NCBI RefSeq assembly: GCF_020164555.1
Contig: NZ_JAIQZB010000012.1
Coordinates: forward strand, 62,001 to 126,000
DNA: 64,000 nucleotides
From: Salegentibacter lacus
GTDB taxonomy: Bacteria; Bacteroidota; Bacteroidia; Flavobacteriales; Flavobacteriaceae
Direction: 5' to 3'
A program made the position numbers and the translations under genes. Below the pieces are notes generated by a model, which saw only the letters and a program-made list of their open reading frames with translations, did not search any database and was not told where the DNA came from. Shown one piece after another: positions 31,061 to 50,295 of this stretch; positions within the stretch are counted from its first letter, which is position 1, and every line of letters begins with the position of its first letter.

Positions 31061-31065
31061 CAATA

Positions 31066-31091: not shown

Positions 31092-31141
31092 TTCTTGGTT
31101 TTTCTTTTAAACTTATAAAATTATACCTGTTTTGTTTCTTT

Positions 31142-31192: not shown

Positions 31193-31231
31193 TATTGGAT
31201 TTTATTCTATCTTTATGGAAACAAGCTAGTT

Positions 31232-32374: not shown

Positions 32375-32385
32375 ATTTTAATACA

Positions 32386-32673: not shown

Positions 32674-32709
32674 TTATGTGGCAGGGTTTCGATTTGTATT
32701 CTTACAGCT

Positions 32710-33465
32710 ATGAATTTTGATCTGTTTAAATATCTCACAACTTTAGGTTTCATATATATTTATGGAAGGTTAGTTTTGCATTATGGCTCCTTTTTTTTAA
32801 GTTTTATGCTGGATAATGAAATGGACTGGATTTCAAAAATTGAAAAGCCAAGAATTCTTTTCCTAGTACTGGGGCTGGGACTAATGCATCTTTCTGTATT
32901 CTCCAGCTATGCTATTGAATCAGATAATTTTTTAGTTGTTGCAATTAGTTTTCTTGTTTTTTTAGCCGGCTTTTTTCTTTCCGTTCTTCCCTGGACCGAT
33001 AAATTTAAAAATAGTATGCAGAGCCAAAAGCCAGCTGGCTCCCTAAAAAAGGACAAAAATTTTAATTTGGTTATTTCAGAAGGTCAAATTCAAAAGTTAT
33101 ATCATAATCTAATGAGGTATGATCTTTTGAATTCTGAGAAGACAAGCCTCCTTGATTTCCAAAAGGTGCTTACTGAAAATTGGGAAACTCATAATTCGAA
33201 AATCCATTTCAATATGGATGGTGCAAGCTGCAGGGAGTTCTATGATTATTTCACCCAGACTTTTCCCGAAAATTCTTTAACGATGAAAAATTTTTTTGAA
33301 ACTTCTAAGCTGGTAATAAGATCCGATGGGAAACCTTATAAGTATAATACCATTAAAAGTGCCCCGTTAAAAACTGTCTCCTCGAAGGAGAACGATAGGT
33401 TGAATAAAATTTTTCAAGAGCTGACTTTAAACCAGGCACGATCTAAAGTGGATAAATCTTTTTAA
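32710..33465 (+). CDS. Element-associated membrane protein of unknown function
   Basis: 251 residues. Three hydrophobic segments in the first 100 residues, then a soluble domain of about 140 residues containing ISEGQIQKLYHNLMRYDLL and the strand MKNFFETSKLVIRSDGKPY. Proteins of this type are found next to integrases and excisionases in Bacteroidetes mobile elements, but no activity is known to me. Its last 23 bases overlap the end of the ASCH gene on the opposite strand. Confidence 0.6.
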   Translation: MNFDLFKYLTTLGFIYIYGRLVLHYGSFFLSFMLDNEMDWISKIEKPRILFLVLGLGLMHLSVFSSYAIESDNFLVVAISFLVFLAGFFLSVLPWTDKFKNSMQSQKPAGSLKKDKNFNLVISEGQIQKLYHNLMRYDLLNSEKTSLLDFQKVLTENWETHNSKIHFNMDGASCREFYDYFTQTFPENSLTMKNFFETSKLVIRSDGKPYKYNTIKSAPLKTVSSKENDRLNKIFQELTLNQARSKVDKSF

Positions 33466-33922
33466 AATATTCGCAAACTATGATCATATCTTCACTGAAT
33501 TTTTCAGGATAATAGGCCATCTCTCTTTCGTAATATGCCTGGTGAACTTTTTTCCAGTATTTTAAAGATTTATCACCTTCGCCTTCAGTTGCTGCAAATT
33601 CTTCTGTGATTTTATTAAATGGAACCTGCTCTATCTTCAGCGTTTCAATTATAGCTTTTGCATTTCCATTCCAATCCGTCACAATTTGTTGGTCCCCAGC
33701 TCTTGGCAGAGGTTCATTATTTTTTTTAAACCACAATAATGAAGTAGCAGTTGCTTGCTTTATTCCCTTTAAGACTAACTCTACACATTCATTCGCATCT
33801 TTTTCATTGTCACAGAAATAGAAAGAAACTGGAACTTCTCCTAATTTATTCTGAGGGTTTTGAGTAAGAAAGTCTTCCCATAGGGTTATTACAGATTTAA
33901 AATTTTCTCTTCCATTATTCAT
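33443..33922 (-). CDS. ASCH domain protein
   Basis: 159 residues. The ASCH core is visible: FYFCDNEKDANECVELVLKG, then KQATATSLLWFKKNNEPLPRAG, followed by WNGNAKAIIETLKIEQVPF and ending at AYYEREMAYYP. ASCH is a beta-barrel related to PUA and binds RNA or modified nucleosides; some members hydrolyse N4-acetylcytidine. Probably cargo of the element. It sits 61 bp downstream of the HipT gene on the same strand. Confidence 0.82.
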   Translation of the reverse strand: MNNGRENFKSVITLWEDFLTQNPQNKLGEVPVSFYFCDNEKDANECVELVLKGIKQATATSLLWFKKNNEPLPRAGDQQIVTDWNGNAKAIIETLKIEQVPFNKITEEFAATEGEGDKSLKYWKKVHQAYYEREMAYYPEKFSEDMIIVCEYFKKIYPL

Positions 33923-33982
33923 AGTTTTCCTATCTCGAAATTTTTTGAGTGCTTTTTAAATTTGTTTTATTCCGCTACCTGC

Positions 33983-34927
33983 CTACTCCAATTTTGAATA
34001 ACGCTGCTCTAATAGATCCGAGTATTTTTGCTTGTATTCGCTTGATAAGAAAGAGCTTTCTAAAAGAGAAAGAGCGTTCTTTTTATTTTTAATGAATCTT
34101 TTAAATACTCCATCAATTTGCTTTTTGTTCAATTCCAGTTTCTCTCCCAGACTCACAAAATGTTTTCTTGCCAACTTTTTCCGCTTTCCTTCAAGAGTTA
34201 GCGCCAGTTCTTCATCATCTTCTGGGTTAACTATAGCTACATTTAAAAGATCATAGGCAGGGGACAAGACCCATTCTCTGCTTCGCTTTATTAAAGAAAA
34301 GTTTTTCAGGTGCATATCGTTATTCCCCGTGAGAAAACTAAATACAGCTATTTCAAAAAAATAAAGTTTATCGAGTAAGGTGTTAGAAGAATAAGTCCCT
34401 ATTGCCTTTCCTACTTTCTCCATCGAACCTTTGTATTTATCAAACGCCTCCAGAATCTGAAACATATCGAGCATATGAATCTTTTCATTATTAAGTGTCC
34501 GATCTATTCTCTTTGTGATATAAGCTAACTCTCCAGATTTTAATCTTATTAAACTTGAAGAAACCGTTCTTATTCCAAAGCCTCCTGCCATTCGCATTGT
34601 AACATGTTCGTTTTCCGGCATTTCAGCAAAAGCTGCAGAGGGTGGTTTTAAAATATAATTTCCTCCGAGCGCTCCTACCACTGTTAACCTGTTATTTTCC
34701 GATGCTAGTGCGTTATCGATGAAGGATAAGGAAAGTTTAGGTTGTACCCCAGGAACTGCTATTCTTCTTTCCACCACATTTTTTGCCAGATCTACCATTT
34801 GATCCAGGGAATAATCTAGCTGAGGCGGAATTTCAGTACCAAAGAAATTTACACTGCAATTGGTGTGAAAATCTTTCGGATCTGTATCTGCCAGTTCCTT
34901 GTAACAATATAGACATCTATTCTGCAT
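33983..34927 (-). CDS. HipT-like kinase toxin of a split HipBST system (locus 1)
   Basis: 314 residues, only the kinase part of HipA. It begins with a cysteine-rich knuckle (CLYCYKELADTDPKDFHTNC). Then the Gly-rich loop region RIAVPGVQPKLSLSF, the catalytic loop NNDMHLKNFSLI (Asp in NDMH, Asn in KN) and the metal loop SPAYDLLNV. The loop reads AVPG, without the SxS phosphorylation pair seen in HipT of E. coli and in locus 2 of this window. It overlaps the HipS-like gene by 11 bp. Targets of the family are aminoacyl-tRNA synthetases; the target here is unknown. Confidence 0.85.
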   Translation of the reverse strand: MQNRCLYCYKELADTDPKDFHTNCSVNFFGTEIPPQLDYSLDQMVDLAKNVVERRIAVPGVQPKLSLSFIDNALASENNRLTVVGALGGNYILKPPSAAFAEMPENEHVTMRMAGGFGIRTVSSSLIRLKSGELAYITKRIDRTLNNEKIHMLDMFQILEAFDKYKGSMEKVGKAIGTYSSNTLLDKLYFFEIAVFSFLTGNNDMHLKNFSLIKRSREWVLSPAYDLLNVAIVNPEDDEELALTLEGKRKKLARKHFVSLGEKLELNKKQIDGVFKRFIKNKKNALSLLESSFLSSEYKQKYSDLLEQRYSKLE

Positions 34928-35252
34928 TTTCTGTAACTATTGGGTGAACACTGACCGCACCTATACAATTTTTGCAACAAGCTAAAAGTAGTCCCATTCG
35001 GTCATTACGGTTAATTTTCCAGTTTTTTGAGGCTATATCAAGAAGCCAACCTTCCGGGATAAGGCCTTCAAAAAAAGGAAAAAGCCGTTTTTCTACATAA
35101 AGTTCTTTTCTAACCGGCATGGTAAACGTGATAAATTGATCGGGATATTTATTAACGTAATCAATTTCATATTGAAATTGATACTCACCGTCATCGGTTT
35201 CGGTTAAAATACCTGCCAGAAGCTCCTGGTAATAAATTTTTGCCTGTCTCAT
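34917..35252 (-). CDS. HipS-like protein (HipA N-terminal subdomain, separate gene), locus 1
   Basis: 111 residues corresponding to HipA N-subdomain 1: KIYYQELLAGILTETDDGEY, FTMPVRKELY, then LFPFFEGLIPEGWLLD. In HipBST this small protein, not HipB, neutralises the kinase. It starts four bases after the HipB-like stop and overlaps the kinase start, so the three genes are one coupled operon. Confidence 0.85.
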   Translation of the reverse strand: MRQAKIYYQELLAGILTETDDGEYQFQYEIDYVNKYPDQFITFTMPVRKELYVEKRLFPFFEGLIPEGWLLDIASKNWKINRNDRMGLLLACCKNCIGAVSVHPIVTENAE

Positions 35253-35255
35253 AAA

Positions 35256-35468
35256 TTAAGTTTGCGAAATATCATTTTGGTCTACCGGAGCAAGCACATG
35301 TCCAAACATCTTTAGCACCTGATTTACCTTTTCCATATTCAGGTTTTCTTTTCCCTGTTCTATTTTTCTCACAACGGTTAATGCCACGCCAGCTCTATCG
35401 GCAAATTCTTCCTGAGTGAGTTGGTTTTCTTTTCGCTTTTGTTTTAAAAACTCTGAGAGGTTTTTCAT
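35256..35468 (-). CDS. HipB-like Xre antitoxin/regulator, locus 1
   Basis: 70 residues, a single HTH_3 domain: LKQKRKENQLTQEEFADRAG then VRKIEQGKENLNMEKVNQVL. The short tail after the HTH is typical of HipB. It probably represses its own operon by binding the AT-rich palindromic region just upstream. Confidence 0.88.
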   Translation of the reverse strand: MKNLSEFLKQKRKENQLTQEEFADRAGVALTVVRKIEQGKENLNMEKVNQVLKMFGHVLAPVDQNDISQT

Positions 35469-35493
35469 TATATGTAATTAAATATAATTATTG

Positions 35494-35501
35494 CAAATAT
35501 A
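35494..35501 (-). promoter_or_regulatory. -7 box (TATATTTG) of HipBST locus 1
   Basis: Exact TAnnTTTG on the minus strand, 25 bp before the HipB ATG. It is flanked by ATATAATTA-type repeats between 35470 and 35515 that could be the HipB operators. Confidence 0.55.
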
Positions 35502-35671
35502 TATTAATTATATGTTTAAACGTATATTTTTGGTTTTATTTCTTTATTTATATGCATTTGCATATAAATTTGTTGGGGAGGTAATTAAATTGATTAGAGC
35601 TGATTTTTCATACTTTAAAAAAGAAGTCATACAAGGTATGAATAGTATGACTTTCTTACTATTTCCCTTCT

Positions 35672-35679
35672 TAGTTTTG
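35672..35679 (+). promoter_or_regulatory. -7 box (TAGTTTTG) for HTH copy 2 / vapE
   Basis: Exact TAnnTTTG match, 60 bp before the ATG at 35740, with a perfect palindrome lying just downstream of it. Confidence 0.5.
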
Positions 35680-35695
35680 GTCTCAGAATTCAAAT

Positions 35696-35713
35696 AACAA
35701 AAGCGCTTTTGTT
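35696..35713. promoter_or_regulatory. 18-bp perfect palindrome, probable operator
   Basis: AACAAAAGCGCTTTTGTT, perfectly symmetrical, between the -7 box (35672) and the start of the HTH gene (35740). The position fits repression by the HTH protein itself or by another element regulator. Confidence 0.6.
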
Positions 35714-35739
35714 CATTTTCAAACTTAAAAATTTTAAAA

Positions 35740-36027
35740 ATGAACGAACTAAAAATGTTAGAGCAACTGGACCGTATAGAGAAATTGGTCCGCGCTCAGA
35801 AAGCCGTATTGACTTTTGACCAGGCCTGTGATTATACAGGAATTTCAAGAAGTTACATGTATAAACTTACCGCAAGGGGGGAAATTCCTTTCTCTAAACC
35901 CAAAGGTAAATTAATCTTTTTCTCACGTGAGAAACTGGATAGCTGGCTACTTAATAATAGTCATTCTTCTAAAGATGAAATCAAGAGGGGAGCAGTAGAA
36001 TATACCTTTAGAAATAAAAGGTTTTAA
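35740..36027 (+). CDS. Excisionase-like HTH protein, copy 2
   Basis: 95 residues, the same length as the copy at 32386. Shared blocks include YTGxSRSxxYKLTAxGEIPF, KGKLIFFSxEKLDxWLL and the end VEYxFRxKRF. It stands 11 bp before the VapE-like gene, the place where a single such gene normally occurs in these elements. Copy 1, next to the integrase, is therefore either a duplicate or the trace of a second element. Confidence 0.85.
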   Translation: MNELKMLEQLDRIEKLVRAQKAVLTFDQACDYTGISRSYMYKLTARGEIPFSKPKGKLIFFSREKLDSWLLNNSHSSKDEIKRGAVEYTFRNKRF

Positions 36028-36038
36028 AGCTTTGGGTT

Positions 36039-37223
36039 ATGAAGAAATTTGAATCCAAACTCTATCAGGTTTCTGAGCAGAAGAAAAAAACGATCTACGA
36101 CGCTGTGGATGAGTATGTATCTGATAAATATGATATCAGGTTTAATGAAATATCTCACGAGTTTCAGATTCGGATTAAGGAATCAAATATCTGGGAAGAT
36201 TTTGAAGTGAATTCCCTGCTTATAGAATTAGCGAAGTCTAACATAGAGATTAATCCGGGTAAACTGGACATCTATTTACGGTCTAACCTGATTCCCAGAT
36301 TTAACCCGATTGCGGAATACTTTGATAAGCTTCCAAAATGGGTGGGTGGAGATCATATAAGAACACTCGCTTCCTATCTTCCCGCCAAAGAACCTGAGCA
36401 ATTTCTTTATCATTTTAGGAAATGGCTGGTGAGAACAGTTAAAGGTGCATTGGATGAAAATTACTTCAATAAGCAATGTTTGGTTTTAGTGCATTCAGAA
36501 CAAAACTCTGGAAAATCTACCTGGTGTAGGTTTCTCTGTCCACCGGCTTTATCAAAGTATTTTGCTGAAGACATGACCACGGATAAAGACGCCAGGATTC
36601 AACTTACCAGGAATTTCATCATCAATTTAGATGAATTATCTGTGCTGGCCAGAAAAGAAATAAATGCCCTTAAAGCTTATTTCTCTAAAACGATGATCAA
36701 TGAAAGGCTGCCTTATGACCGTAAAAACTCAAACCTGCGAAGGACCTGCAGTTTTATAGGATCTACAAACAGGGCAACTTTTCTTAATGATGAAACCGGT
36801 TCTGTGCGCTGGTTATGTTTTGAGCTTATTGGTAAAATTGATTTTGCTTACTCCCGGGAAGTTGATATAGATAAAGTATGGGCTCAGGCTTATTACCTGG
36901 CCTATGTGGATGAACAATTTAACCCAGAATTGACCCTGGAGGATATTGTTGCAAATGAAGAAAGGAACAAGACTTACCGGGAAGCCAGTATGGAAGAAGA
37001 ACTGCTCTGTAAATACTATCTCAAGAGTTCAGATCCAGCCGACTTTAAAACGGCATCAGATGTAGTATTGCAACTGAATTGTATTAATCCGAGACTGAAT
37101 ATTTACAATATGGGTAGAGCAATGAGGGCCCTGAACTTTGAAAGGGTAAAATCTACCCAAAATGGAAGATATGGCTACCTGGTCAAACAGAGGTTCAAGA
37201 CCTCTCCTTTAGAAGTTTTATAA
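36039..37223 (+). CDS. VapE-like (virulence-associated E) ATPase/helicase
   Basis: 394 residues. Walker A VHSEQNSGKSTWCRFL near residue 150; Walker B region NFIINLDELSVLARKEINALK; a sensor segment SFIGSTNRATFLNDETGS and arginine-rich YDRKNSNLRRTC. This is the VapE family, P-loop ATPases near superfamily 3 helicases, found in phage satellites and Bacteroidetes mobile elements. It presumably unwinds the element's origin with the primase encoded downstream. Confidence 0.88.
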   Translation: MKKFESKLYQVSEQKKKTIYDAVDEYVSDKYDIRFNEISHEFQIRIKESNIWEDFEVNSLLIELAKSNIEINPGKLDIYLRSNLIPRFNPIAEYFDKLPKWVGGDHIRTLASYLPAKEPEQFLYHFRKWLVRTVKGALDENYFNKQCLVLVHSEQNSGKSTWCRFLCPPALSKYFAEDMTTDKDARIQLTRNFIINLDELSVLARKEINALKAYFSKTMINERLPYDRKNSNLRRTCSFIGSTNRATFLNDETGSVRWLCFELIGKIDFAYSREVDIDKVWAQAYYLAYVDEQFNPELTLEDIVANEERNKTYREASMEEELLCKYYLKSSDPADFKTASDVVLQLNCINPRLNIYNMGRAMRALNFERVKSTQNGRYGYLVKQRFKTSPLEVL

Positions 37224-37417
37224 AATCTATTTACCCTAATTACCCAAACCCTGGAAAGGGCTGTTAACAAAGGGGGTTTCACTGGGTAAATAGAATTTAA
37301 AACTATCTACCCTAATTACCTTTTTAGGTAGATAGGGTAGATAGGAAAAACAGCCAAAATAGAAAAAAACCCCTGGTTTTACTGGCCTGGATAAATAGGT
37401 AATTAAAAATTGAAAAA
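37224..37417. repeat. Repeat-rich spacer between vapE and primase
   Basis: The motif ACCCTAATTACC occurs twice in direct orientation (near 37231 and 37309), and the inverse GGTAGATAGGGTAGATAGG follows the second copy so that the two can pair. A perfect short repeat CCCTGG and CCTGG also occurs. The layout suggests a regulatory hairpin or a replication origin for the VapE/primase pair. Confidence 0.4.
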
Positions 37418-38287
37418 ATGAACTTAAATAACTTATCGTGTAAAAGTGCCCGTAATATTTGCATCGTAAAAACGCTGGCAAAATTAGGGCACTTTCCCAC
37501 CAGAACATCGGAAAAAGAAGCTTGGTTTCTGAGTCCCCTGCGGTCAGAAACCCAAGCCTCTTTTAGCGTCTCTTTAATTAAAAACTTATGGTTTGACTTC
37601 GGATCGGGAATAGGAGGGAATACCATCGATCTAATTATGCTTATTAAATCCTGGTCTGTAAGGGAAACCCTGGAATATTTAAAGCACGATATGGGATCTC
37701 TTTCTTTTAGCCCGCCGGATATTGAACATCTTACTAAGGAGCCAGAAATTAGTATCCTGGACGTTCAAATTATTCACCTGAAAGCATTAGTTGATTATCT
37801 AAGCTCACGGAATATACCTTATGAGATTGGTAGAAAATACTGCAGACAGGTTTGGTATCGCTGTAAAGGAAAACGATTTTTTGCTCTTGGCCTTGAAAAT
37901 TATAAAAGAGGCTGGGAACTTAGAAATAAATACTTTAAAACTTCCAGTAGCCCTAAAACCTTTTCTTTTTTTGAAAGAGAGTCCAGACAACTACTTATCA
38001 CAGAAGGGATGTTTGATTTTCTTTCCCTGGCCACTATTGATGAAGACTTAGTACAAAACTCAGACTGTATCATTTTAAATTCCCTGGCTTTTTTGGAAAG
38101 GATTAAAATACTCATCCCTAAATATGAAAAGGTACTGATCTATCTGGACAATGATGCGGCTGGTAAAAAAGCAGCCAGTTCACTTCTAAACCAATTTGAT
38201 AATGTTAAAGATTGTAGCGATTCCTACTCTGGCTATGTAGATCTGAATGAAAAATTAAAAGCTGAAAAATCCTTGACTTTAAAATAA
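37418..38287 (+). CDS. CHC2-like/toprim primase of the element
   Basis: 289 residues. The N-terminal part (HFPTRTSEKEAWFLSPLRSE, then WFDFGSGIGGNTIDLIML) matches the CHC2 zinc-finger fold but has lost the zinc cysteines. The C-terminal toprim domain shows the Glu in LLITEGMFDFLSL and the Asp pair in IYLDNDAAGKKA. It probably primes replication of the element after excision or transfer. Confidence 0.82.
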   Translation: MNLNNLSCKSARNICIVKTLAKLGHFPTRTSEKEAWFLSPLRSETQASFSVSLIKNLWFDFGSGIGGNTIDLIMLIKSWSVRETLEYLKHDMGSLSFSPPDIEHLTKEPEISILDVQIIHLKALVDYLSSRNIPYEIGRKYCRQVWYRCKGKRFFALGLENYKRGWELRNKYFKTSSSPKTFSFFERESRQLLITEGMFDFLSLATIDEDLVQNSDCIILNSLAFLERIKILIPKYEKVLIYLDNDAAGKKAASSLLNQFDNVKDCSDSYSGYVDLNEKLKAEKSLTLK

Positions 38288-38338
38288 TAATGAGTTGTAA
38301 ACGGTAAATGCCTATCGGAGAATTTCAGTTGAAAGGCA

Positions 38339-38375
38339 AAAGCAAGATGTGTCATTGTAATGACAATCTTGCTTT
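38339..38375. other. Candidate origin of transfer (oriT) hairpin
   Basis: Arms AAAGCAAGAT (38339-38348) and ATCTTGCTTT (38366-38375) are perfect inverses. Inside them TGTCATT (38350-38356) faces AATGACA (38359-38365) with a two-base loop; only G38349 is unpaired. It lies in the 124-bp gap directly upstream of mobC and the relaxase gene, where oriT is expected. Confidence 0.65.
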
Positions 38376-38411
38376 GCGCCCGATGGTTGCAAAGATTTTA
38401 AAAAGAAAAAA

Positions 38412-38708
38412 ATGAAAAGGGAATACATACAAGTCCGCTGCTCGATCTACGAGAAGAAGCTGCTCAAAAGAAGAGCGGCCAGGGCAGGAATTTCCCTTTC
38501 AGAATATATCCGAGCAACGGCCTTTGATAAAAATATTGTAGAACGGATAACCCCGGAACAACTGGAGACTTACAAAATGCTGGTACAGTACAAGAACAAC
38601 TTCAGCCGCATTGGGAATATGTTTAAAAAAAGGGATCCAAAGCTGGCCAGAGAAGTGGAAGACCTGGCGAAAGAAATTAGGACACATTTAAAAAACTTTA
38701 AAAAATGA
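38412..38708 (+). CDS. mobC: MobC-like relaxosome accessory protein
   Basis: 98 residues. N-terminal ribbon-helix-helix: EYIQVRCSIYEKKLLKRRAA then GISLSEYIRATAF, followed by a helical tail. This matches Bacteroidetes MobC/MbpA-type proteins that bind oriT and help the relaxase. Its stop overlaps the relaxase ATG by four bases. Confidence 0.87.
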   Translation: MKREYIQVRCSIYEKKLLKRRAARAGISLSEYIRATAFDKNIVERITPEQLETYKMLVQYKNNFSRIGNMFKKRDPKLAREVEDLAKEIRTHLKNFKK

Positions 38709-39571
38709 TAGGGAAAGGACATAGCATTTCAGGCGCCAGAGTTTCCATATCCTATGGTTGGAACCAGGAGAAAGAAGCTGAAGTCGTGTTAAGAGAACAC
38801 GTGGCCGGGGATACTCCCGCGGAGATTGCTGAAGAGTTTAGGATTATCCAGTCGCAAAACTTACGATGTACCAATAATACCTTAAGCTTCATCGTAAGCC
38901 CAACAATTGAGGACGGCAAGGATCTAAGCAAAAAGGAACTGGAAGACCTCGCTAAAAAGTTTTTAAAGGAAATGAACCTGCAAAACAATCAATCCATTGG
39001 ATTTGTACACCGGGATAAAGCGCATACCCACGTTCATATTTATACCAACAGGATTGGTTTTGATGGCAAAGCCTACAATGACAGCTTTATCGGAAAACGA
39101 AGCCAGATAGCTGCCGATAATGTGGCAAAAGAATTAGGACTGACCAGGGTTCGGGAAGTTCAGCAGGAAAGACTTAATGAGTTGAAGGGCCTCAGACAGG
39201 AAATCAAAAATATACATGACCGGGTACTTCAGTCGAGGCCAAAATCCGTGGATGAATATATAAATAAAATGAAAGCCCAGAAGGTGGAAGTGATTCCCAC
39301 CATCAATAAAGCGAATCAACTGCAGGGGTTTCGGGTGGAATACAAAGGAGTGAATCTTAAAGCAAGTGAAGTGGACCGATCAATGAGCGGTAATCGGTTA
39401 ATTCCCGCGATCTCGCAAAACAGAAGTTTAACAAGAGGAATGGAAGCACCAAAAAACCTTCAGGTTTTAAATAAAACGGTACAGTTAAGCAGTAATCTGT
39501 CAACCAAAATAGCTAAAGAGCTTATAAAAGGAGCTGTAAAAATAGTAAGGGATACCGGAATCGGATATTAA
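38705..39571 (+). CDS. Relaxase (MobA/VirD2-like)
   Basis: 288 residues. The candidate nucleophile Tyr lies near the start (SISYGWN, residue 17), a variant spacing. The metal-binding histidine motif is HRDKAHTHVHIYTNRI near residue 105. The domain continues to about residue 160, followed by helical sequence. The relaxase nicks one strand at oriT and carries it to the recipient; no coupling protein or mating-pair genes are in the window, so the element would need a helper. Confidence 0.9.
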   Translation: MIGKGHSISGARVSISYGWNQEKEAEVVLREHVAGDTPAEIAEEFRIIQSQNLRCTNNTLSFIVSPTIEDGKDLSKKELEDLAKKFLKEMNLQNNQSIGFVHRDKAHTHVHIYTNRIGFDGKAYNDSFIGKRSQIAADNVAKELGLTRVREVQQERLNELKGLRQEIKNIHDRVLQSRPKSVDEYINKMKAQKVEVIPTINKANQLQGFRVEYKGVNLKASEVDRSMSGNRLIPAISQNRSLTRGMEAPKNLQVLNKTVQLSSNLSTKIAKELIKGAVKIVRDTGIGY

Positions 39572-39582
39572 ACAATTGAATT

Positions 39583-40041
39583 ATGAAAAAACTAGATGAA
39601 ATTATGGAACTGATGGCCGATGAGATGGATGATTTCAAAACTGCTGTGCTGGAACTTCAAAAGCTTTCAGAACAATTAGTTAAGATGAGCATCCCCATTA
39701 GCACGGAAGCTTTGGAAAAGAACCTGAACACATTCCTGCTAAAGCAGCAAGCGGAAAAAGAAAAAACAGATGAAATCCTGCAGGGTATAGACAGAAAATT
39801 AAAACACGCCAGGATCATACCAAATTATCTGCTCATCCTTTTAGGAATATTTGGGATTCTTGCTGTGGGATCTGTGGGGTATTTTGGTTACACCGATAAA
39901 GAAAATGTAGAAGAGAATTTTGAAGTCTACCAAATGATTATGGAATCACAGATTAAGTCATACGAAGATTATTTTGCAGCATATCCTGAAATCCACGATG
40001 CATACTGCAAGTGGCTAGAGAGTGGATACCAGGGTTTGTAA
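39583..40041 (+). CDS. Coiled-coil membrane protein at the end of the mobilisation operon
   Basis: 152 residues. The first 90 residues are predicted coiled coil (KKLDEIMELMADEMDDF, EKEKTDEILQGIDRKL). One membrane helix follows (LLILLGIFGILAVGSVGYFG) and a short exposed C-terminus. It starts 11 bp after the relaxase stop. Similar small proteins end Bacteroidetes mob operons; the role is unknown. Confidence 0.65.
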   Translation: MKKLDEIMELMADEMDDFKTAVLELQKLSEQLVKMSIPISTEALEKNLNTFLLKQQAEKEKTDEILQGIDRKLKHARIIPNYLLILLGIFGILAVGSVGYFGYTDKENVEENFEVYQMIMESQIKSYEDYFAAYPEIHDAYCKWLESGYQGL

Positions 40042-40461: not shown

Positions 40462-41403
40462 TCAAAAGTTTCTTGTGATATAAGTAATCTCACAAGGTTT
40501 ACACTTTCTCCATCTTTGATCTACATCTCCAATTGAAAAACGCCCTTCTCTTTTTTCAAAAATATCCAATCCTCGGCCAAGGATAATCTTACATCTATTA
40601 TTGGTCTCAATATATCTGTCATGATGCTTTTCAAGGGAATAGGTTAGATTAATTCCCATTTCTTTTACATTCGCAGCTATTTCTTCAAAGCAATCTTTAC
40701 TCTGGTTTAGAAACTCTTTCAAGTTCCACGAAATTACTTTAAGATTAATTATCTTTCCCGGATTATTCAAGTTTCCGAGCATCACACAAAACTCCAGCAG
40801 ATTATTAAACTGATATGGTAATCTTATCCAAGGATCCTGAAGTATTATATTATTAGCTTCCTTTAGATGACTTGCAAATAATTTTTCAAAAGTGATATTG
40901 GTTTGATCCTGTTTAATAATTTCTTGTTCCTGTGACTTTGTCTTTAGTTCTGGAACTGAAGTAGAGGAGGTATACTCTTTTTTTAGATGGGAAGGTTTAA
41001 GAACAGACTTTTTTGAATTACTCTTTAATTCTTCAGAAATTGGAAATTTTTCTACAATAAAAGATTTAAAATCCACGTCGCTACCTCCTGATGAAAGATC
41101 GTGAAGATACCTGTCCTGAGGGTCGCTTGAGATCACCAGATTTACAGCATTTTTAGCTTCCCATATTCTAAAGTGTTTTTCAAGATTAATAAATGTATTT
41201 GCAGGAATTTTCAACCATATTAGTTCATGTGCTCCTACTAAAACTATATTCCAATCCTTCTTGAAATTCTCAAGTTTTATATTCATCCACCAAGCAGCAC
41301 GGTTACCGCTTATGCTTATACTTGCAAAGGTGGTATTTTTTGTTTTTAAATTATCCGAACCTTTTTGGGAATTGATGTAATGAATTGCCTTGGTTTTTAC
41401 CAT
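40462..41403 (-). CDS. Protein with a MITD1-like C-terminal (PLD-fold) domain
   Basis: 313 residues, no signal peptide. The C-terminal part (from about 165) reads like the MIT C-terminal domain of eukaryotic MITD1: DPWIRLPYQFNNLLEFCVML, later EKHHDRYIETNN followed by IILGRGLDIFEKREGRFSIG and the CKPCEITYI end. The domain has a phospholipase-D-like fold without the HKD pair. The N-terminal part (about 30-130) is a separate globular domain I do not recognise, joined by a low-complexity Ser/Lys linker. Divergent from the Xre-dptFGH operon, with 278 bp between the starts. Low GC, like the Dnd genes. A role in defence is inference. Confidence 0.7.
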   Translation of the reverse strand: MVKTKAIHYINSQKGSDNLKTKNTTFASISISGNRAAWWMNIKLENFKKDWNIVLVGAHELIWLKIPANTFINLEKHFRIWEAKNAVNLVISSDPQDRYLHDLSSGGSDVDFKSFIVEKFPISEELKSNSKKSVLKPSHLKKEYTSSTSVPELKTKSQEQEIIKQDQTNITFEKLFASHLKEANNIILQDPWIRLPYQFNNLLEFCVMLGNLNNPGKIINLKVISWNLKEFLNQSKDCFEEIAANVKEMGINLTYSLEKHHDRYIETNNRCKIILGRGLDIFEKREGRFSIGDVDQRWRKCKPCEITYITRNF

Positions 41404-41681: not shown

Positions 41682-41912
41682 ATGGATTCTTCAGAAGAGA
41701 AAAGACTTCAAAATTTAGGCAACCGTTTAAAGTATTTTCGAAAACTTAAGGGATATACAAATTATGAGCATTTAGCTTATGACGTAGGTATTTCTCGATC
41801 TCAATATGGAAAATATGAAAATGGAGGAAACATAAAGTTTACCACCCTTTGTAAGATTTTGGAACATTTAGATATTTCTTTGAAGGATTTTTTTAGTAAA
41901 GGATTTGAATAA
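41682..41912 (+). CDS. Xre-family regulator heading the restriction operon
   Basis: 76 residues, a single HTH: NRLKYFRKLKGYTNYEHLAY then GISRSQYGKYENGGNIKFTT. It ends eight bases before the dptF start chosen here, so it is the first gene of the dptFGH operon. No dndB repressor is present, so this protein is the obvious candidate for its control. Confidence 0.85.
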   Translation: MDSSEEKRLQNLGNRLKYFRKLKGYTNYEHLAYDVGISRSQYGKYENGGNIKFTTLCKILEHLDISLKDFFSKGFE

Positions 41913-41919
41913 AAAATTT

Positions 41920-43656
41920 ATGCAAGCACACCCGCTGGCTGAAGCACTTCAGAATCTTCGTGAATCATCGAAGCATGCAATAGCAGAAGGCAATTCTTAT
42001 AATTTCGATGAATTTAGTGAGTATTTTCATGTCGAAAGAGAGATTGAACAAAAACTAGTTGATAGGATTAGATTTTGTTCTCAAAGATATGAACCAAGTT
42101 TGCTACTCGTTTGCGGGAATGTAGGTGACGGTAAATCTCATATTCTTTCCTATTTAAATAAGGTGGTGCCTGAGGAAATAAAAAGATTTAAAATTCATAA
42201 TGACGCAACTGAGGCCCATGATCCAAATGGAAATTCAAACGATACTTTAAATAGAGTTCTTGAATCTTTTCAAGACCAAAATATTGAAAACTCTAAAGAC
42301 AGGTTAATTCTTGCAATTAATTTAGGAACCCTGAATAATTTTATTGACACTCATGGGGATAAATATTCTAAGCTCATAGAATATGTAAACAAGAAAAAAA
42401 TTCTGGATACTGATTTAATTGATGAAGATTCTATAGATGAAGAAAGTATTTTTCAGCATGTAAATTTCACCGATTATCATATGTACTCATTGTCTGAGTA
42501 TGGTGCGGAATCCAAAATTATATCTACATTATTAGAGCGATTAACAAAAGAAGATGAGCAAAACCCTGTTTACAGAGCTTATATTGAATTTCAAAATATG
42601 AGTTTTTCAGTTGATTGCCCAATCAGCTTCAATTATCAATTTATCTCAAAAAAGAAATATCGTGATGTAATTTCAGATTTTATAATACAATCAATAATTA
42701 AGAATAAGGAAATCGTTTCTATAAGATCTCTTATGAACTTTTTTTATGATCTCATAGTCCCTATTGGCCTTAAATGGGAGAATTTGAAGGATTATGAGGT
42801 TCAATTAAATAAAATGAGTGTAACTGATTATCTTTCTAATACTACACCGAATTATTTATTTGAGCACTCTGAATTATCGAGTTTGTTTGAAAAATTCCAA
42901 GAATTGGATCCGTGTGCTTATAGGTACTCTGAATTAGATCAAAACCTGATACAACTAATTAATTCTAATCGCCCTGAATCGATTTTTACAAGGTTTATAA
43001 ACGGAGATTCAACTGAAGGCTTGATAGGATACATCAACCATGATAAGCTTAACAAAAATAATTTAACGAAACTATTTATTAGGCTGAACTACTTCAATAA
43101 AAGCTCTGAAGTACTTGAGAGAAGTAATCCTTATTTTATGAAGTTTATGCAGCTCTTATATCTTTTTAATTGTAACGATGAATCGGCGAAGAAAAAGGTG
43201 TATAACCTTGTTTATAATTCCGCTAGGCTCTGGTATGGTGATCCAAAAAAATCTGGAAAAGCTATCGTGAAACTTGGAAGAAATCAATCAAAATACAGAA
43301 TTTTTAAGGATTTTAAACCTTCGCCTATCCTAGGAAATGGCACAAAAAAAAATGATCCAATTTTAACCCGTTTTGTTCAAGAATTCACTCTCTTCTTCGA
43401 AAACGGAAATTCCGAAAAATTAAAAATTCATGTTGACTATAGCCTTTTTGAATTATTAAATAAGATAGTAAAAGGCTACCGGCCAAATAGAAAGGACAAC
43501 AATAATTATATCACCTTTATTACCTTTATAAATAGATTAATTAATCATGAAAATGATAAATCAGCACTTGAAATTGATGAAATAAATATAGGAAAAGCAG
43601 CGGATTATAAATTAAGCTTAAACTATTTAGGCGAGTATACCTTCGATACTATATGA
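41920..43656 (+). CDS. dptF: DNA phosphorothioation-dependent restriction protein DptF
   Basis: 578 residues from ATG 41920; a TTG at 41905 would overlap the Xre stop. Walker A CGNVGDGKSHILS near residue 70, then a long helical ATPase body. Length and P-loop context match DptF (DndF), the NTPase part of the DptFGH complex that attacks DNA lacking phosphorothioate. Its stop overlaps the dptG start (ATGA). Confidence 0.88.
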   Translation: MQAHPLAEALQNLRESSKHAIAEGNSYNFDEFSEYFHVEREIEQKLVDRIRFCSQRYEPSLLLVCGNVGDGKSHILSYLNKVVPEEIKRFKIHNDATEAHDPNGNSNDTLNRVLESFQDQNIENSKDRLILAINLGTLNNFIDTHGDKYSKLIEYVNKKKILDTDLIDEDSIDEESIFQHVNFTDYHMYSLSEYGAESKIISTLLERLTKEDEQNPVYRAYIEFQNMSFSVDCPISFNYQFISKKKYRDVISDFIIQSIIKNKEIVSIRSLMNFFYDLIVPIGLKWENLKDYEVQLNKMSVTDYLSNTTPNYLFEHSELSSLFEKFQELDPCAYRYSELDQNLIQLINSNRPESIFTRFINGDSTEGLIGYINHDKLNKNNLTKLFIRLNYFNKSSEVLERSNPYFMKFMQLLYLFNCNDESAKKKVYNLVYNSARLWYGDPKKSGKAIVKLGRNQSKYRIFKDFKPSPILGNGTKKNDPILTRFVQEFTLFFENGNSEKLKIHVDYSLFELLNKIVKGYRPNRKDNNNYITFITFINRLINHENDKSALEIDEINIGKAADYKLSLNYLGEYTFDTI

Positions 43657-45131
43657 AAGAAGTAACAATAGAAATGGAAGGCATAGATGGCCTCATCTCA
43701 ACTTATATCAATAAAGATAAATGGAGAGGGCACTTAACTGGAAATAAATTTAAAATCTTACCATTTAAAACAAAATTCTCCCAGAATTGTATGCCTGATC
43801 TTAGGTCTTTTCATGGTGTAGTGGGTGAATGCTTTAGAATTTCAAGAGATGAAAAATTCAGTAAAGAATTAAATGGAAATAAGAAAGAATCCTTTAATCA
43901 TAATTTAAGAGATTTTATTATAGATAATGTTCAGAAGGAGGTTAATACTAAACATTTTGATAGACTAAAAGATGTTATAATAAATCTGTTTTTTGAAGAT
44001 GATCATAGTCTTATCAAATTTAGTAAAGACACACTTCCTTACCTTAACTTTTTCATTCAAAGTAACCATCTTGAAGAAATCTCTTATTTCGTCTATAGTA
44101 TATTTTTGAAGGGTGATATCCTCAAGGACGAGGATTTAACAAAGAGCACCAATGACAATTTGTTATATAAATTGGTTTTAGAAAGTTTGCCTGATTTGGA
44201 AATAAAAACAGGTTCTAATGATAGGAAAGAATACAAAAATATATTTCCTCAAATAAAGGACTTATTCCAAAAAGATTTCAAGTTTATAGCTTCAAGTGAA
44301 GAATTGTATTTAAATCATATTCAAGATTTATATAAATATTATTTTTTCTTTTATCTATCGCAATTGGCTCGTTTTTTTAACTCTTTTGGAGCGGATAAAG
44401 AGATTAAGCCAATTTACTTTTCCATGGACTGGGAAACACTTTCAGCTTCCAGGCTAGCTTATCTGTCTGGCTGGGTAATTTTAAAGAGAGATTCAAATGG
44501 TCTTTTTTCTCACATATTTACACTAGAGTTATTAAATTATATTTTAGTTGCCAATGATTCTATTGGTGACTATTTTGAAATTCAAGAAACTTCTAAAAGT
44601 TTGGCTACTGAAGAGAAAACTAAACTTATTGAATCCATAAGGCTGATTTCAGAGTTCTATAAGGGTAATATATCTAAGTTTTATGCCGGATATAACTGGG
44701 AAAAATGTGAAAATGAGGTTGCGGGTTATTTTCTTAGAAATCCTAAAAAATATAATTGTGAAGTACAGAAAGAAATTATTAGACTGTACAAACTAATTAA
44801 ATATCAATTTGATCATTCCGAGAGAGGGGCTGCTCATGAAAGATATGGAAAATGGTTTGAACATTTTTGCAAAATTAACTTTGTTAAAAATAGAGGTCGT
44901 TTAGGAGGAACAACAGTCCTAAACCAGGAATACCTATTATTTCTAACAAAATTATGTATTGGTAAAAAAGATAAAATTCGTTTGAATGAATTATGGCACC
45001 AACTAAGATTAAGAGGTTTAGTTTTTGACGAAACCTCGAAAGGGGAAATAATCAAATTATTTGAAAAAATTAATTTACTAGAGAAAAAAAGTGATAGTGG
45101 AGATGCTCAATACGTCAAGTCAACTATATAG
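43653..45131 (+). CDS. dptG: DNA phosphorothioation-dependent restriction protein DptG
   Basis: 492 residues, no clear enzymatic motif; the family is recognised by position and by stretches such as FSKDTLPYLNFFIQSNHLEE and YFSMDWETLSASRLAYLSGW near the middle. DptG is an obligatory partner of DptF and DptH. It overlaps dptF by four bases and dptH by 29 bases, so translation is coupled. Confidence 0.85.
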   Translation: MKEVTIEMEGIDGLISTYINKDKWRGHLTGNKFKILPFKTKFSQNCMPDLRSFHGVVGECFRISRDEKFSKELNGNKKESFNHNLRDFIIDNVQKEVNTKHFDRLKDVIINLFFEDDHSLIKFSKDTLPYLNFFIQSNHLEEISYFVYSIFLKGDILKDEDLTKSTNDNLLYKLVLESLPDLEIKTGSNDRKEYKNIFPQIKDLFQKDFKFIASSEELYLNHIQDLYKYYFFFYLSQLARFFNSFGADKEIKPIYFSMDWETLSASRLAYLSGWVILKRDSNGLFSHIFTLELLNYILVANDSIGDYFEIQETSKSLATEEKTKLIESIRLISEFYKGNISKFYAGYNWEKCENEVAGYFLRNPKKYNCEVQKEIIRLYKLIKYQFDHSERGAAHERYGKWFEHFCKINFVKNRGRLGGTTVLNQEYLLFLTKLCIGKKDKIRLNELWHQLRLRGLVFDETSKGEIIKLFEKINLLEKKSDSGDAQYVKSTI

Positions 45132-48100
45132 TTATATATCCAAATTAATAGTTGAAAACTTTTCAACTCAGAATATTTCTCCAGGAGATCGTTATAATTT
45201 CTACCTAGAGGAAGAAGATCATGTCAAAGGTATCTATGAAGAACTTCGAAAAATCAATCTTCCAACACAAAATTTCACATATACTCACCCTGAATCTGAG
45301 GGTAAACCCTATTCCACTTTTAGTATAACTATTAATACAACTAAAGTTATAATAGCTTCAAGTCAAAATGCAACAGAAGATTATTTTACGACCCTAAGGA
45401 ACCTGGTAGCTCTCCAAAAAAATCAATTTGAGAATACTGCCCTTTTAATTTTATTTAGTGGTAAGCTGGACAGTCTATTAGGGGGAAGTGGCAGTTTGAA
45501 CAAGGAAGGTATGCCCTTACATCATAGTGTTTTTCGAAAAAAGCTGGCGGCCGACATAGAAAAATCTTCTTTCAAACGGCACGAAAAAATGTTATTAAAT
45601 GAAGTAATTACGCGTAAAACGAAAAGTGTTGTTGAAGATAACAATTCCATATTTGATTTTTCTCAAGTAATAGATTCTTTAGTTAAAGAAAAAATTGAAT
45701 CTAAAGATTTTAAAAATTTAGGGTTCTTTCCGGATGAGGAATTAAAAACTAAAACGGATCCAAATGTTATAAGATCAACTTTAAATGAAAATTTTGAACT
45801 TTTTGAAAGAATTGAAAATATTCATTCTCATGGCGACCCAGAAATAGATTTAGAAAAATTAGTTTCAGAAGCCGGTAGAAAGAGATTAATTCAAGCTAAT
45901 TGGGCAGAATATGATTTTTCAGATGTTCAAAAATGGAGGGATCAAAAAAATAATAGAGTTGCTCCGGTTTTTCAAGGTGTGAATGGTAATGACGCATTCA
46001 GAAAGATTTGGTGTAGATCAGATAGCGATACTATAGCTGGTAGAAGAAACAATAATTTAATTATTTTCAACCCGGAAAAAGACATTCCTTATTCAATTGA
46101 ATTAAGATTCGATCAACCAACAAGTATTGAAGGAGTATCAATAAAAAAGGGGAAGGATCGTTTTAAGGCTTCTACTAGCGGTCACAGTCTTAAAATTGAT
46201 GTTCATTCATTTAATCCAGAAGAACTTTTTGGTCTTATTAATTATCAGGATAAGTCAACAAGAAAACTTTACAAATTCAAAATCCTTCAACTTCCCGTAG
46301 AAGAAGATTTATTAAAAGCCTTTGAAACAAAATTTTTAATAGGTAAGGAGGAAAGTTTATTAATTGAAGAAACTGATGAACTTGTATTCAATGAAAATAA
46401 TAAAAACAAGGTCATTGAGAAATTAAAGCCAGATGCAAATTACACTCTAGGTAAAGATGTTTCGCTTAAAATTAAGATCGATTACGATACAATACCTGAT
46501 GACTTTATAGCCTTCAACATTGAGTATAATGAAATAACAATTCCACTCGGAATAAAACCGGATGTAGAGCCTCCAAGGCCTATAACTGGGTTAGATGTAT
46601 GGAAAGAAAAAAGGGAAAATTTTAAAGATTTTCAATATTCATACGAAGAAAGCATTTTAAAATTAACCTTCAAGAATAATGAAAGAACTGTACGGGGAGA
46701 GTTTAGAAAAAATTTACTTTTAGAAAGGGAAATAATTAACTCTGGAGCTTTTTCATGGAATGAACATGCCGACAATGAATTAAAAGATAGGCCAATAAAT
46801 TTACCCCAGGATCTTAAAGAGGCATTTAACGAATTAAGGAACTACTATATTAGAAATGATAGTCTTCCCAGCTTGACTTTACTAAATGGGGAGGCTTATG
46901 ATCTTTCTAAAAATTTAGTTGATTTATACTTTAGTAAATTAAATTCTTTACGGGAGAATAAAGTTTTAGACCCTCAAGAACGGGATTTATCTCAATTAGG
47001 GGTGGTACTTGAAAAATTTGGTGAGCAACTTGTTAAATATTCTCCTCTTCACCCATTAAACATCGCTTATCAACTTCATATAATTAATGAATTAAAACAA
47101 GAAGAAATATACAATGCTGTCTTAGAAAGATTAAGCCCGATGAACCTTGTTCCGTATCTTGAAAAAGGCGGAAAAGTATATACTCCAATAGATACATTAG
47201 ATTCTCCCGAATGGCTTTATTATACTGAATACCTACATTCTGAACAATCAATTCCTAAAAATTATGTAGTTAAATTAGTCCGTGAGAAGTTAGAAGATTT
47301 TACATATAATTTTGACTTTCTATTTTCACAATCTAGTAAATCACCAATAATTCTAAATGCTATAAACCTTGGTGATTGTAAGGAGATCATGCAAGGTATA
47401 TTCGAATACTATCGAACTTTTTTAAATAAGAAAACTTCCAAACGTCCAACTGATTTATTACCTATCGATATTAACATATATGGAGCAGACCAAATTGTCT
47501 CAAAATTTGAGGAACTTACATATTACACCAATGTTGAAGATGTTGAAGAAAAACTCGATGTAAATCTAAAAACATCTAATTTTGAAAAGGAGGACCTCTT
47601 AAACATCTTTCTTGAAAAAATTAATTTTTATAGTAAATCCATCCCTAGTAGTGATGAGAGTTATGAATATGCGCATATAACATTCTATCAATTTGATCGC
47701 AATCAAATTAAAAGAAACTCAAATCATACTTCTGATATAAAGAGCGGAATTTCCTTAAATGGTCTTATTTCAGATGTTCCTTCTGTTCCTGTAAACGCTC
47801 AAACTTACCGCTCTGGCTTTGGAGTAAAACATTCACCTGAAAAGAGTAATTTAATAACTCAATTTTCTAGTCTTTACAATTCATTGGTTAACGTAGTTGA
47901 TAATGGCAACGATTTCGAATCTAATAAAGCAATTTGCACTACAATCGATCTAAAAATAAAAGATCAACTTCAAAATCTATACACCAATTCCCAGTGGGTT
48001 ACTTATATAGACCCGAAAGTTGATTTAGACTTCTTTAAACAAGAAGATGACCTAGTGATTATTCATTATAGTGATCAATATAATAATTCAAGCGGTTACG

Positions 48101-50295
48101 ATGCTATAACCGTTACGGACAAGACACATCAGTACTCTTCAATTGTTAGTGAATTTTTAACCAAAAATAAAGTAACCCATGAGCCCAAAAAAGACACCCT
48201 AAAGGTCATAAATTTCTTTAATGCTATAAATGGTGATTGGTTGCTAAAGCTTATTCGTCAGGACAATCAGTTCCCACGAGAAAAGATAAGTTTATTATCT
48301 GGCATAAAAACCTCTCTAAGTTTTCTATATCATCCAGACATTATATGGATTCCGATTTCTCTTGAGGAAATCCTAAGAGTTTCCGGTAGCGCTGGTCTAA
48401 AAATGTCGGACGGTCTCTTTTCTGCAAAAAATCTTGGTTCCAAAGAGTTTTCCTTCAGCGATGATCTATTGTTGATTGGTCTGGAAAAATGCAATGAATC
48501 ACTCAAAATGCACCTCTACCCAATGGAACTTAAAATTGGTGGAAGTAATCTCAAAAAGAAAGGCATTGAGCAAGGTAGAAAAACAGCTATTTTGTTGAAA
48601 GAACATCTTTCTAAAAAATGCTTTCTAGGGGAATTTTATAAAAATTTCTTTGCAAAGCTGGCCATTACCAATGCTGAAAAGATGCAGTTATACAAAATTT
48701 GGGATACTCAGACTTGGAGTCAAGTTTTTGAAAATTACCGGTCGGATTTAATGAATAATAACTTTGAAATATCAAATTCAATAGAGGAATCATATGGAAA
48801 TTTTGGTCTAATCCATTTCGGAAAAGAAACTATTCAACGGCAACTACAAAAAAAAGAGGATTACATAATAGCTGAATTATTAGAAGAAGATGGCTACAAT
48901 TTTTTGGTGAAATCAATTGATGAGTTAATTCACCTTTTCCACGAAACACCTACAGGGATAGAAAAGCAGAATTTATTACTCCAAAAATTACCCGTTGGAA
49001 CATGTGAGGTAAAGGAAATAGGAACTTTCAATTTAGAGGTTCAGAAAAAAGAAGTGCTATACAGCATACCATTAGAAAATAAGAGGCTGGAAGCTGCAGA
49101 ACCTGAAGAAATTGAAAAAAGGGGAGAGAGTGAAGGTTTGGAGCCTGCTAATGACAGTGATGGAATAGAAATTTTATTCGGGAATGATTTAAAAGACGGT
49201 AAAAAAATTATTTGGGAACCCAATAATACCAATAAAGTAATGCACACTAATACAGGCATTATTGGCACTATGGGGACAGGAAAAACTCAGTTTACTAAAT
49301 CATTAATTGCTCAAACTGCATGGAATCAAAATAGGAATATTGGAAGCAAAAAATTAGGCATTCTAATATTCGATTATAAAGGAGATTATATTAAGGATGA
49401 TTTTGTTAAAGCTACGGATGCTAAGGTTTTTCATCCATATCATTTGCCTTATAATCCTCTTGCATTAGATGTAACTTCTACTTCTAAACCAATGCTTCCC
49501 TTGCATACCTCTAACGACATTAAAGAAACTATTTCCAATGCATTTAACTTAGGAAATGTACAAAAGCAAAAATTGCGTGATGTTATTATAGAAGCATACG
49601 AACATAAGGGTATTTATAAAGCAAAACGAGAGACCTGGAGTAAAGAAGCTCCCACTTTGGGCGATGTTTGTAATATATATATGTCTGATGAAAAAGTGGC
49701 TCACGATAGTTTATATGCAGCAATTTCCAATCTTCAAGATTTTGAGATTTTTGAACCGGATGCTTCAAAAACCAAATCTCTATATTCTTTGGTAGAAGGA
49801 GTAACGGTTATCAATCTTTCTGGATATGATGAATCTATTCAGAACTTAATTGTAGCTATAACCTTAGATGCATTTTATACTCAAATGCAAACTAATGGCC
49901 ATAGTAAAATTGATGGCCATAAACGGCAGTTACGCAAAATGATTTTAGTTGATGAAGCTGATAATTTTCTGAGTAAAAACTTTAATTCAATTAGAAAAAT
50001 TTTGAAAGAAGGCCGTGAATTTGGTGTTGGTACTGTTCTGTCGACTCAGTTTTTAAATCACTTTTCTACTGCAGAAAATGACTATTCAAACTATATTCTT
50101 ACCTGGGTGATTCATCGAGTAAACGAAATCAAAACAAAGGAAGTAGAGTCTCTTTTTACTATTGAATCAAAAGATCAAAGGGATAATTTGATCAAAACTA
50201 TTAAAGGTCTAGAAAAGCATCATAGTATAGTGAATCTTGCGGGTTCTGAACCTATTCTGATGAAAGACAAAGCTTTTTGGGAATTAAATAGTTAA
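45103..50295 (+). CDS. dptH: DNA phosphorothioation-dependent restriction protein DptH, HerA-type ATPase
   Basis: 1730 residues from ATG 45103; a GTG at 45091 is also possible. The long N-terminal 1380 residues carry no motif I can name. The C-terminal 330 residues are a HerA/FtsK-like ATPase: GTMGTGKTQFTKSL (Walker A), the segment GILIFDYKGDYIKDDF and Walker B KMILVDEADNFLS. It is the likely DNA-translocating or cleaving engine of the restriction complex. Its stop overlaps that of the opposite-strand methyltransferase gene. Confidence 0.9.
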   Translation: MLNTSSQLYSYISKLIVENFSTQNISPGDRYNFYLEEEDHVKGIYEELRKINLPTQNFTYTHPESEGKPYSTFSITINTTKVIIASSQNATEDYFTTLRNLVALQKNQFENTALLILFSGKLDSLLGGSGSLNKEGMPLHHSVFRKKLAADIEKSSFKRHEKMLLNEVITRKTKSVVEDNNSIFDFSQVIDSLVKEKIESKDFKNLGFFPDEELKTKTDPNVIRSTLNENFELFERIENIHSHGDPEIDLEKLVSEAGRKRLIQANWAEYDFSDVQKWRDQKNNRVAPVFQGVNGNDAFRKIWCRSDSDTIAGRRNNNLIIFNPEKDIPYSIELRFDQPTSIEGVSIKKGKDRFKASTSGHSLKIDVHSFNPEELFGLINYQDKSTRKLYKFKILQLPVEEDLLKAFETKFLIGKEESLLIEETDELVFNENNKNKVIEKLKPDANYTLGKDVSLKIKIDYDTIPDDFIAFNIEYNEITIPLGIKPDVEPPRPITGLDVWKEKRENFKDFQYSYEESILKLTFKNNERTVRGEFRKNLLLEREIINSGAFSWNEHADNELKDRPINLPQDLKEAFNELRNYYIRNDSLPSLTLLNGEAYDLSKNLVDLYFSKLNSLRENKVLDPQERDLSQLGVVLEKFGEQLVKYSPLHPLNIAYQLHIINELKQEEIYNAVLERLSPMNLVPYLEKGGKVYTPIDTLDSPEWLYYTEYLHSEQSIPKNYVVKLVREKLEDFTYNFDFLFSQSSKSPIILNAINLGDCKEIMQGIFEYYRTFLNKKTSKRPTDLLPIDINIYGADQIVSKFEELTYYTNVEDVEEKLDVNLKTSNFEKEDLLNIFLEKINFYSKSIPSSDESYEYAHITFYQFDRNQIKRNSNHTSDIKSGISLNGLISDVPSVPVNAQTYRSGFGVKHSPEKSNLITQFSSLYNSLVNVVDNGNDFESNKAICTTIDLKIKDQLQNLYTNSQWVTYIDPKVDLDFFKQEDDLVIIHYSDQYNNSSGYDAITVTDKTHQYSSIVSEFLTKNKVTHEPKKDTLKVINFFNAINGDWLLKLIRQDNQFPREKISLLSGIKTSLSFLYHPDIIWIPISLEEILRVSGSAGLKMSDGLFSAKNLGSKEFSFSDDLLLIGLEKCNESLKMHLYPMELKIGGSNLKKKGIEQGRKTAILLKEHLSKKCFLGEFYKNFFAKLAITNAEKMQLYKIWDTQTWSQVFENYRSDLMNNNFEISNSIEESYGNFGLIHFGKETIQRQLQKKEDYIIAELLEEDGYNFLVKSIDELIHLFHETPTGIEKQNLLLQKLPVGTCEVKEIGTFNLEVQKKEVLYSIPLENKRLEAAEPEEIEKRGESEGLEPANDSDGIEILFGNDLKDGKKIIWEPNNTNKVMHTNTGIIGTMGTGKTQFTKSLIAQTAWNQNRNIGSKKLGILIFDYKGDYIKDDFVKATDAKVFHPYHLPYNPLALDVTSTSKPMLPLHTSNDIKETISNAFNLGNVQKQKLRDVIIEAYEHKGIYKAKRETWSKEAPTLGDVCNIYMSDEKVAHDSLYAAISNLQDFEIFEPDASKTKSLYSLVEGVTVINLSGYDESIQNLIVAITLDAFYTQMQTNGHSKIDGHKRQLRKMILVDEADNFLSKNFNSIRKILKEGREFGVGTVLSTQFLNHFSTAENDYSNYILTWVIHRVNEIKTKEVESLFTIESKDQRDNLIKTIKGLEKHHSIVNLAGSEPILMKDKAFWELNS

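Follow-up and report, generated by a model that had tools for sequence, protein, structure and literature searches.

A BrxL-type MIT_C domain fused to a restriction-associated domain in a mobile island of Salegentibacter lacus

In a window of 64,000 nucleotides of Salegentibacter lacus DNA (the window being the whole stretch that was analysed), we found that a 313-amino-acid open reading frame on the minus strand, at positions 40462-41403, joins two domains of separate descent. Its C-terminal half is an MIT_C domain with a PLD-like fold, most likely taken from the BrxL proteins of Bacteroidota, as its profile match, fold and position in a tree indicate. Its N-terminal half comes from a family whose members are usually encoded on their own, next to type I restriction genes. 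In a second genus, Salinimicrobium catena carries this fusion too, joined at the same place.

Domain layout and fold of the fusion protein

The AlphaFold2 model of the protein contains two confident domains, and the linker that separates them has a pLDDT under 50 at residues 132-155. The features of the gene, all on the minus strand, are as follows.

40462 to 41403, minus: whole gene, N-domain plus linker plus MIT_C (open reading frame, translation, AlphaFold2 model)
41038 to 41403, minus: N-domain, residues 1-122 (no Pfam match; usually encoded on its own next to type I restriction genes)
40936 to 41037, minus: linker, residues 123-156, mostly of low confidence in the model
40465 to 40935, minus: MIT_C / PLD-fold domain, residues 157-313, BrxL type (profile, fold, tree)
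40810 to 40836, minus: DPWIRLPYQ, residues 190-198 (alignment of 15 domains)
40600 to 40623, minus: HxRx4N motif (H261, R263, N268), a variant of HxKx4D
40564 to 40578, minus: GRGLD, residues 276-280 (alignment of 15 domains)

A preliminary description of this DNA had listed a series of sequence blocks for the open reading frame, and all of them were found in the translation: the block DPWIRLPYQFNNLLEFC, which begins at residue 190, and the further blocks HDRYI (261-265), GRGLDIFEK (276-284), RFSIGDVD and CKPCEIT. Seven positions within these blocks (D190, P191, R194, Q198, G278, L279 and D280) are invariant across 15 aligned domains. The description had also proposed that this is a bacterial MIT_C protein of MITD1 fold lying in a defence island, and here it was right. 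Pfam MIT_C (PF16565), whose cut-off is 25 bits, matched residues 170-309 with a score of 115.4 bits (E 2.5e-33), covering positions 2-141 of the 142 in the profile, and phmmer against PDB sequences retrieved MITD1 (4a5z, E 2.1e-17; 2ymb, E 3.2e-17). Fold comparison likewise gave a PLD-like fold as in MITD1, which came first in Foldseek, ahead of human phospholipases D; the comparison with MIT_C and MITD1 that had been proposed thus returned a match by both profile and fold. Since nucleases and lipases appear together in the Foldseek and VIA results (the VIA structure list sets SauUSI at 9.3, phosphatidylserine synthase at 9.2 and PLD3 at 8.9), fold comparison cannot tell the two activities apart.

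Relatives and origin of the MIT_C domain

Human MITD1 has been described as an ESCRT cofactor in abscission (PMC6015221, PMC9477494) with a PLD-like domain that binds membranes (PMC6015221). The special tie to MITD1 or to membranes drawn in the preliminary description was not supported, the nearest bacterial relatives found being the C-termini of BrxL proteins. PADLOC matched its BrxL profile only at positions 501-694 of 698. Matches to the protein were found in 25 of 395 Bacteroidota genomes, the window's own among them, and the other 24 genomes yielded 26 places: 24 open frames of 673-709 codons, one frame of 1070 codons and one stop-bearing frame of 99 codons. When six of these 26 places were scanned with NCBIfam, all five relatives of BrxL size passed the cut-off of TIGR02688 (BrxL). 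The 1070-codon frame (L013:823-3429) is not a BrxL; in it, MIT_C precedes an extended series of repeats that were named Sel1-like by eye.

Viral and plasmid sequences gave a similar picture. On viral contigs the BrxL core was present in the same frame in 15 of 16 relatives, the remaining one being a fragment at a contig end, and neither the full-length protein nor the N-domain had a relative there. Among plasmids there were 24 records at E <= 0.01, none spanning more than 80% of the query. The annotation is brxL for 17 of the 24 and an IF-2 N-terminal protein for one. A separate "MIT C-terminal" gene on one plasmid (L092) was considered as an independent architecture and rejected as a brxL in pieces. 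Phage records contained no whole-protein match at E <= 0.01, and the N-domain query returned from them only rows of E 6 or more.

In a tree of 44 MIT_C domains the two fusions grouped together (support 100/100) and adjoined a BrxL encoded on a plasmid of Tenacibaculum finnmarkense (support 99/88), which sits with brxC, pglX and pglZ. This tree was midpoint-rooted for drawing and carries a long-branch warning, the fusions and the T. finnmarkense row not being among the long branches. The C-terminal domain shares 37-47% identity with many BrxL proteins from Bacteroidota and 56% with the one from T. finnmarkense. TIGR02688 had no match in the S. lacus genome, and the 313-residue protein, which is without the BrxL N-terminal part and AAA+ core, gave no NCBIfam hit.

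The motif of HKD/PLD-type nucleases has been given as HxKx4D (PMC12839542). At the corresponding positions the 26 Bacteroidota places read HRD in 20, HRN in four and QRD in one, the last place being the fragment, and the 16 viral loci read HRD in 15 and HRN in one; HRN is therefore found at five of these 42 loci, and H and R are retained at 40 of the 41 that are readable. Both fusions are HRN, and MITD1 aligns with the same letters. Each of the two departures from HxKx4D, R for K and N for D, thus recurs among relatives. Three plasmid proteins were examined, reading HRD, HCD and HRS, the HRS form being the brxL in pieces. The BrxL in the BREX operon of the T. finnmarkense plasmid (L093:6645-8651, CP116296.1) has HDC in place of HDR within the motif and thereby provides a natural test of the motif's necessity. 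On a Thiodictyon plasmid, a 947-amino-acid protein (L091:3640-6483; NZ_CP020372.1, 172660-175503) combines a GTPase of dynamin type (Dynamin_N, E 2.8e-20) with an MIT_C domain at its C-terminus (E 2.7e-21), which has the motif HRD.

Neither MIT_C nor its connection with BREX is new, and PF16565 has been associated with BREX in print (PMC12715929). The C-terminus of the solved BrxL is reported as Lon-like, not PLD-like (PMC10164562). According to a comparative study of 2026, an HKD-endoDNase domain with HRD replaces the Lon-like domain in 1030 of 2913 type-1 BREX taxa with BrxL, and DNA cutting is proposed for this form of the BrxL C-terminus (PMC12839542). From its motif and its place at the end of BrxL, we identify that domain as a putative MIT_C; the words "MIT" and "MITD1" do not occur in the study's main text.

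The N-domain family and the islands that carry the fusion

The preliminary description could name no family for the N-terminal domain, yet relatives exist and share a repeated type I restriction neighbourhood. With residues 1-122 as the query, and a three-row alignment for the genus and family counts, relatives were found in 4 of 15 genus genomes and 7 of 349 family genomes, and 18 loci came from one pattern-based scan covering the genomes of 84,980 species; the merged set comprises 19 genomes, the window's included, all of them Bacteroidota. The domain is a stand-alone gene of 117-121 amino acids in 17 of the 19 (one truncated at a contig end) and is fused to MIT_C in the other two, those of the window and S. 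catena. BLAST of the surrounding stretches revealed Hsd-like genes with all 17 stand-alone copies; the usual complement is two HsdM, one HsdS and one HsdR, interspersed with other genes. In seven of these 17 loci a GIY-YIG-like gene lies within 100 bp of the N-domain gene, a label with strong support in one group (GIY_YIG_2, E 2.4e-34) but weak support in the second (E 0.09 and 0.0012). Pfam searches for N6_Mtase and HSDR_N covered seven genomes (six stand-alone loci plus S. catena), and at each of the six stand-alone loci two genes passed the N6_Mtase cut-off and one passed that of HSDR_N; in one genome (G888) both methylase frames contain a stop. Between hsdM, hsdS and hsdR, the stand-alone operons (L057-L073) carry McrBC-like, RecQ/UvrD-like, GIY-YIG-like, AAA and sacsin-like cargo, named mostly by eye.

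The N-domain has no Pfam match. Its model (pLDDT 87.4, pTM 0.82) is mainly beta and found no clear counterpart among PDB structures; in BFVD, a phage GIY-YIG protein has a domain of similar fold (E 1.7e-5, TMq 0.63), which fits the N-domain as a partner of nucleases. A distant relative (E 3e-9, 30-35% identity), counted outside the 19 genomes, is a 124-amino-acid hypothetical protein near yfiR-tpbB on a P. aeruginosa plasmid (L095:8995-9369, NZ_CP131792.1); because its neighbours are non-defence genes, the N-domain is not confined to restriction operons. Nine weak matches (E 7.6e-4 to 0.01) were left uncounted, seven appearing unrelated by eye and two having no real open reading frame, as was one further weak match (E 2.5e-4).

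The S. catena fusion is an open frame 70% identical to the window protein, with 81 of 122 residues identical in the N-domain, 15 of 32 aligned residues in the linker and 122 of 157 in the MIT_C half; 160 of the 275 nucleotide differences between the two genes fall at third codon positions. Both halves are conserved between the two genera. Its locus reads, in order, HsdR-like, AAA, methylase, HsdS-like, McrB, McrC, PLD, NUDIX, helicase-like, HNH, fusion, exonuclease/GIY-YIG. The methylase is over the N6_Mtase cut-off, and the HsdS-like and HsdR-like labels rest on weak BLAST matches (E 2e-8 and E 1e-11); as no HSDR_N match at this locus was over the cut-off, "hsdR" was downgraded to HsdR-like. 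The names McrB, McrC, NUDIX, DUF2075 and AAA are provisional here, several of them having been given by eye. The preliminary description had considered that the gene might be found elsewhere away from defence genes: the S. catena copy does lack dptFGH, but it still lies among defence-type genes.

The fusion gene of the window is placed between mobilisation genes and XRE-dptFGH, with these plus-strand neighbours.

29537 to 40041, plus: mnmE, integrase, HTH, VapE-like, primase-like, NikA-like and MobA-type relaxase genes of a mobile element
41682 to 41912, plus: XRE-type HTH gene (HTH_3, E 1.6e-10) that diverges from the fusion and overlaps the start of dptF
41905 to 50295, plus: dptF, dptG, dptH

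The divergence from dptFGH noted in the preliminary description was borne out, with the addition of the XRE-type HTH gene in between, a likely regulator of the dpt operon that the description had missed. Within the mobile element, a HipA-type kinase is encoded as two genes on the minus strand (33983-35252; Couple_hipA of 111 and HipA_C of 314 amino acids). The integrase comes after mnmE in the window and adjoins mnmE in S. catena; the two integrases are 37% identical and the mnmE genes 77%, which confirms the mnmE label in S. catena. The fusion is thus carried at one and the same site by different elements. Around the S. catena island, the mnmE end recurs as a 17-nt direct repeat at a distance of about 29 kb (L049:15548 and L074:4181; G758:C5), which is no more than suggestive of an att site, and downstream of the mnmE end in the window there is only a 13-nt repeat at chance level. 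BLAST against Hsd references found no hsd gene in the window; HsdS genes lie on other contigs of the S. lacus genome.

Possible functions and relation to known systems

We tentatively favour, at a little under even chances, the interpretation that the fusion is a defence effector of two domains that arose through domain capture, with its PLD-fold half a predicted nuclease. The MIT_C domain was most likely captured from a Bacteroidota BrxL, and the N-domain of about 120 residues stands in place of the AAA+ motor. The N-domain may recognise DNA or dock on a restriction complex, the flexible linker would tether the PLD-fold domain, two copies might pair so that their two HxRx4N motifs form one active site, and this paired site would cut invading DNA. 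The fusion would travel in mobile islands inserted at mnmE, next to any restriction system that happens to ride there. Besides the profile, fold and tree evidence for the MIT_C half, this interpretation draws on the retention of H and R by almost every relative, the DNase proposed for the HRD form of the BrxL C-terminus (PMC12839542), the Hsd-like genes found with every stand-alone N-domain copy, the phage GIY-YIG protein with a similar domain and the conservation of both halves in S. catena. Against it count N in place of the usual D, relatives with Q for H or C for R, fold matches that mix nucleases with lipases, the same letters in MITD1, which is reported as a membrane binder, the lack of an hsd gene in the window by BLAST, and the P. 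aeruginosa relative.

Some of the same observations would suit the main rival account, which we consider less likely. In it, the PLD fold of MIT_C has lost catalysis and serves in dimerisation, docking or membrane binding, and the protein is an adaptor or membrane-acting effector. Fold and HRN letters common to MITD1, whose PLD-like domain is described as membrane-binding (PMC6015221), the Thiodictyon protein with its dynamin-type GTPase, and relatives with a broken motif (HCD, QRD) agree with it; H and R are nevertheless kept beyond a scaffold's need, the MIT_C family is usually housed in a DNA-binding restriction factor, and the N-domain accompanies restriction and GIY-YIG-like genes. That the gene is a dedicated Dnd/Dpt phosphorothioate component (sensor, regulator or extra effector), as its divergent position next to XRE-dptFGH could suggest, seems improbable. 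The S. catena genome has no dptF match, the only dptF among the 349 family genomes is the window's own, so that the pairing is not obligatory as judged from two fusions, and the N-domain family resides with type I restriction genes; the tie to dptFGH proposed in the preliminary description is therefore not upheld. We give very little credence to a decaying BrxL remnant joined by chance to another open reading frame: the S. lacus genome has no BrxL core, as such a remnant would predict, but the open fusion in another genus largely refutes this origin, and the 160 of 275 differences at third codon positions and the confident models of both domains also speak against it.

Under the favoured effector interpretation, the MIT_C tail resembles a part borrowed for attacking DNA more than it does a tool for membranes. 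It is also conceivable, though we regard it as doubtful, that MIT_C originated in prokaryotes as an antiviral effector domain of PLD fold which moved from one defence system to another (BrxL in BREX, this type I accessory, a dynamin-type GTPase), and that MITD1 is a domesticated descendant which kept HxRx4N and turned to membrane use. If true, no case would show MIT_C switching systems more clearly than this gene. The 313-residue protein keeps a BrxL tail domain apart from the BrxL motor, so tail function can be tested on it; it also brings to light a domain family, as yet unnamed, with ties to the genes of type I restriction, and connects the PLD-fold domain of a human ESCRT cofactor with an antiviral domain family, where simple assays could decide between nuclease and membrane binder. 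A literature search found no publication on the fusion, the N-domain family or its type I context.

Among known systems, the BrxL proteins of type 1 BREX with an HKD-type/MIT_C C-terminus (TIGR02688 core plus PF16565) share with the fusion the same C-terminal domain and motif spacing, but the fusion lacks their N-terminal DNA-binding part, AAA+ core and BREX genes and has a different N-domain instead. Compared with human MITD1 (4a5z, 2ymb), it has no MIT domain (whole-protein Pfam search), its N-domain is mainly beta and from another family, and its sequence is closer to BrxL; ESCRT partners are not expected. The stand-alone N-domain genes are 32-42% identical to its N-domain, with WW, GG and F positions in common, but they carry no MIT_C and are separate genes among hsd genes. 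To Nuc and the HKD/PLD-type nucleases SauUSI, NgoAVII R and BfiI the fusion is 8-12% identical, with HxRx4N where they have HxKx4D.
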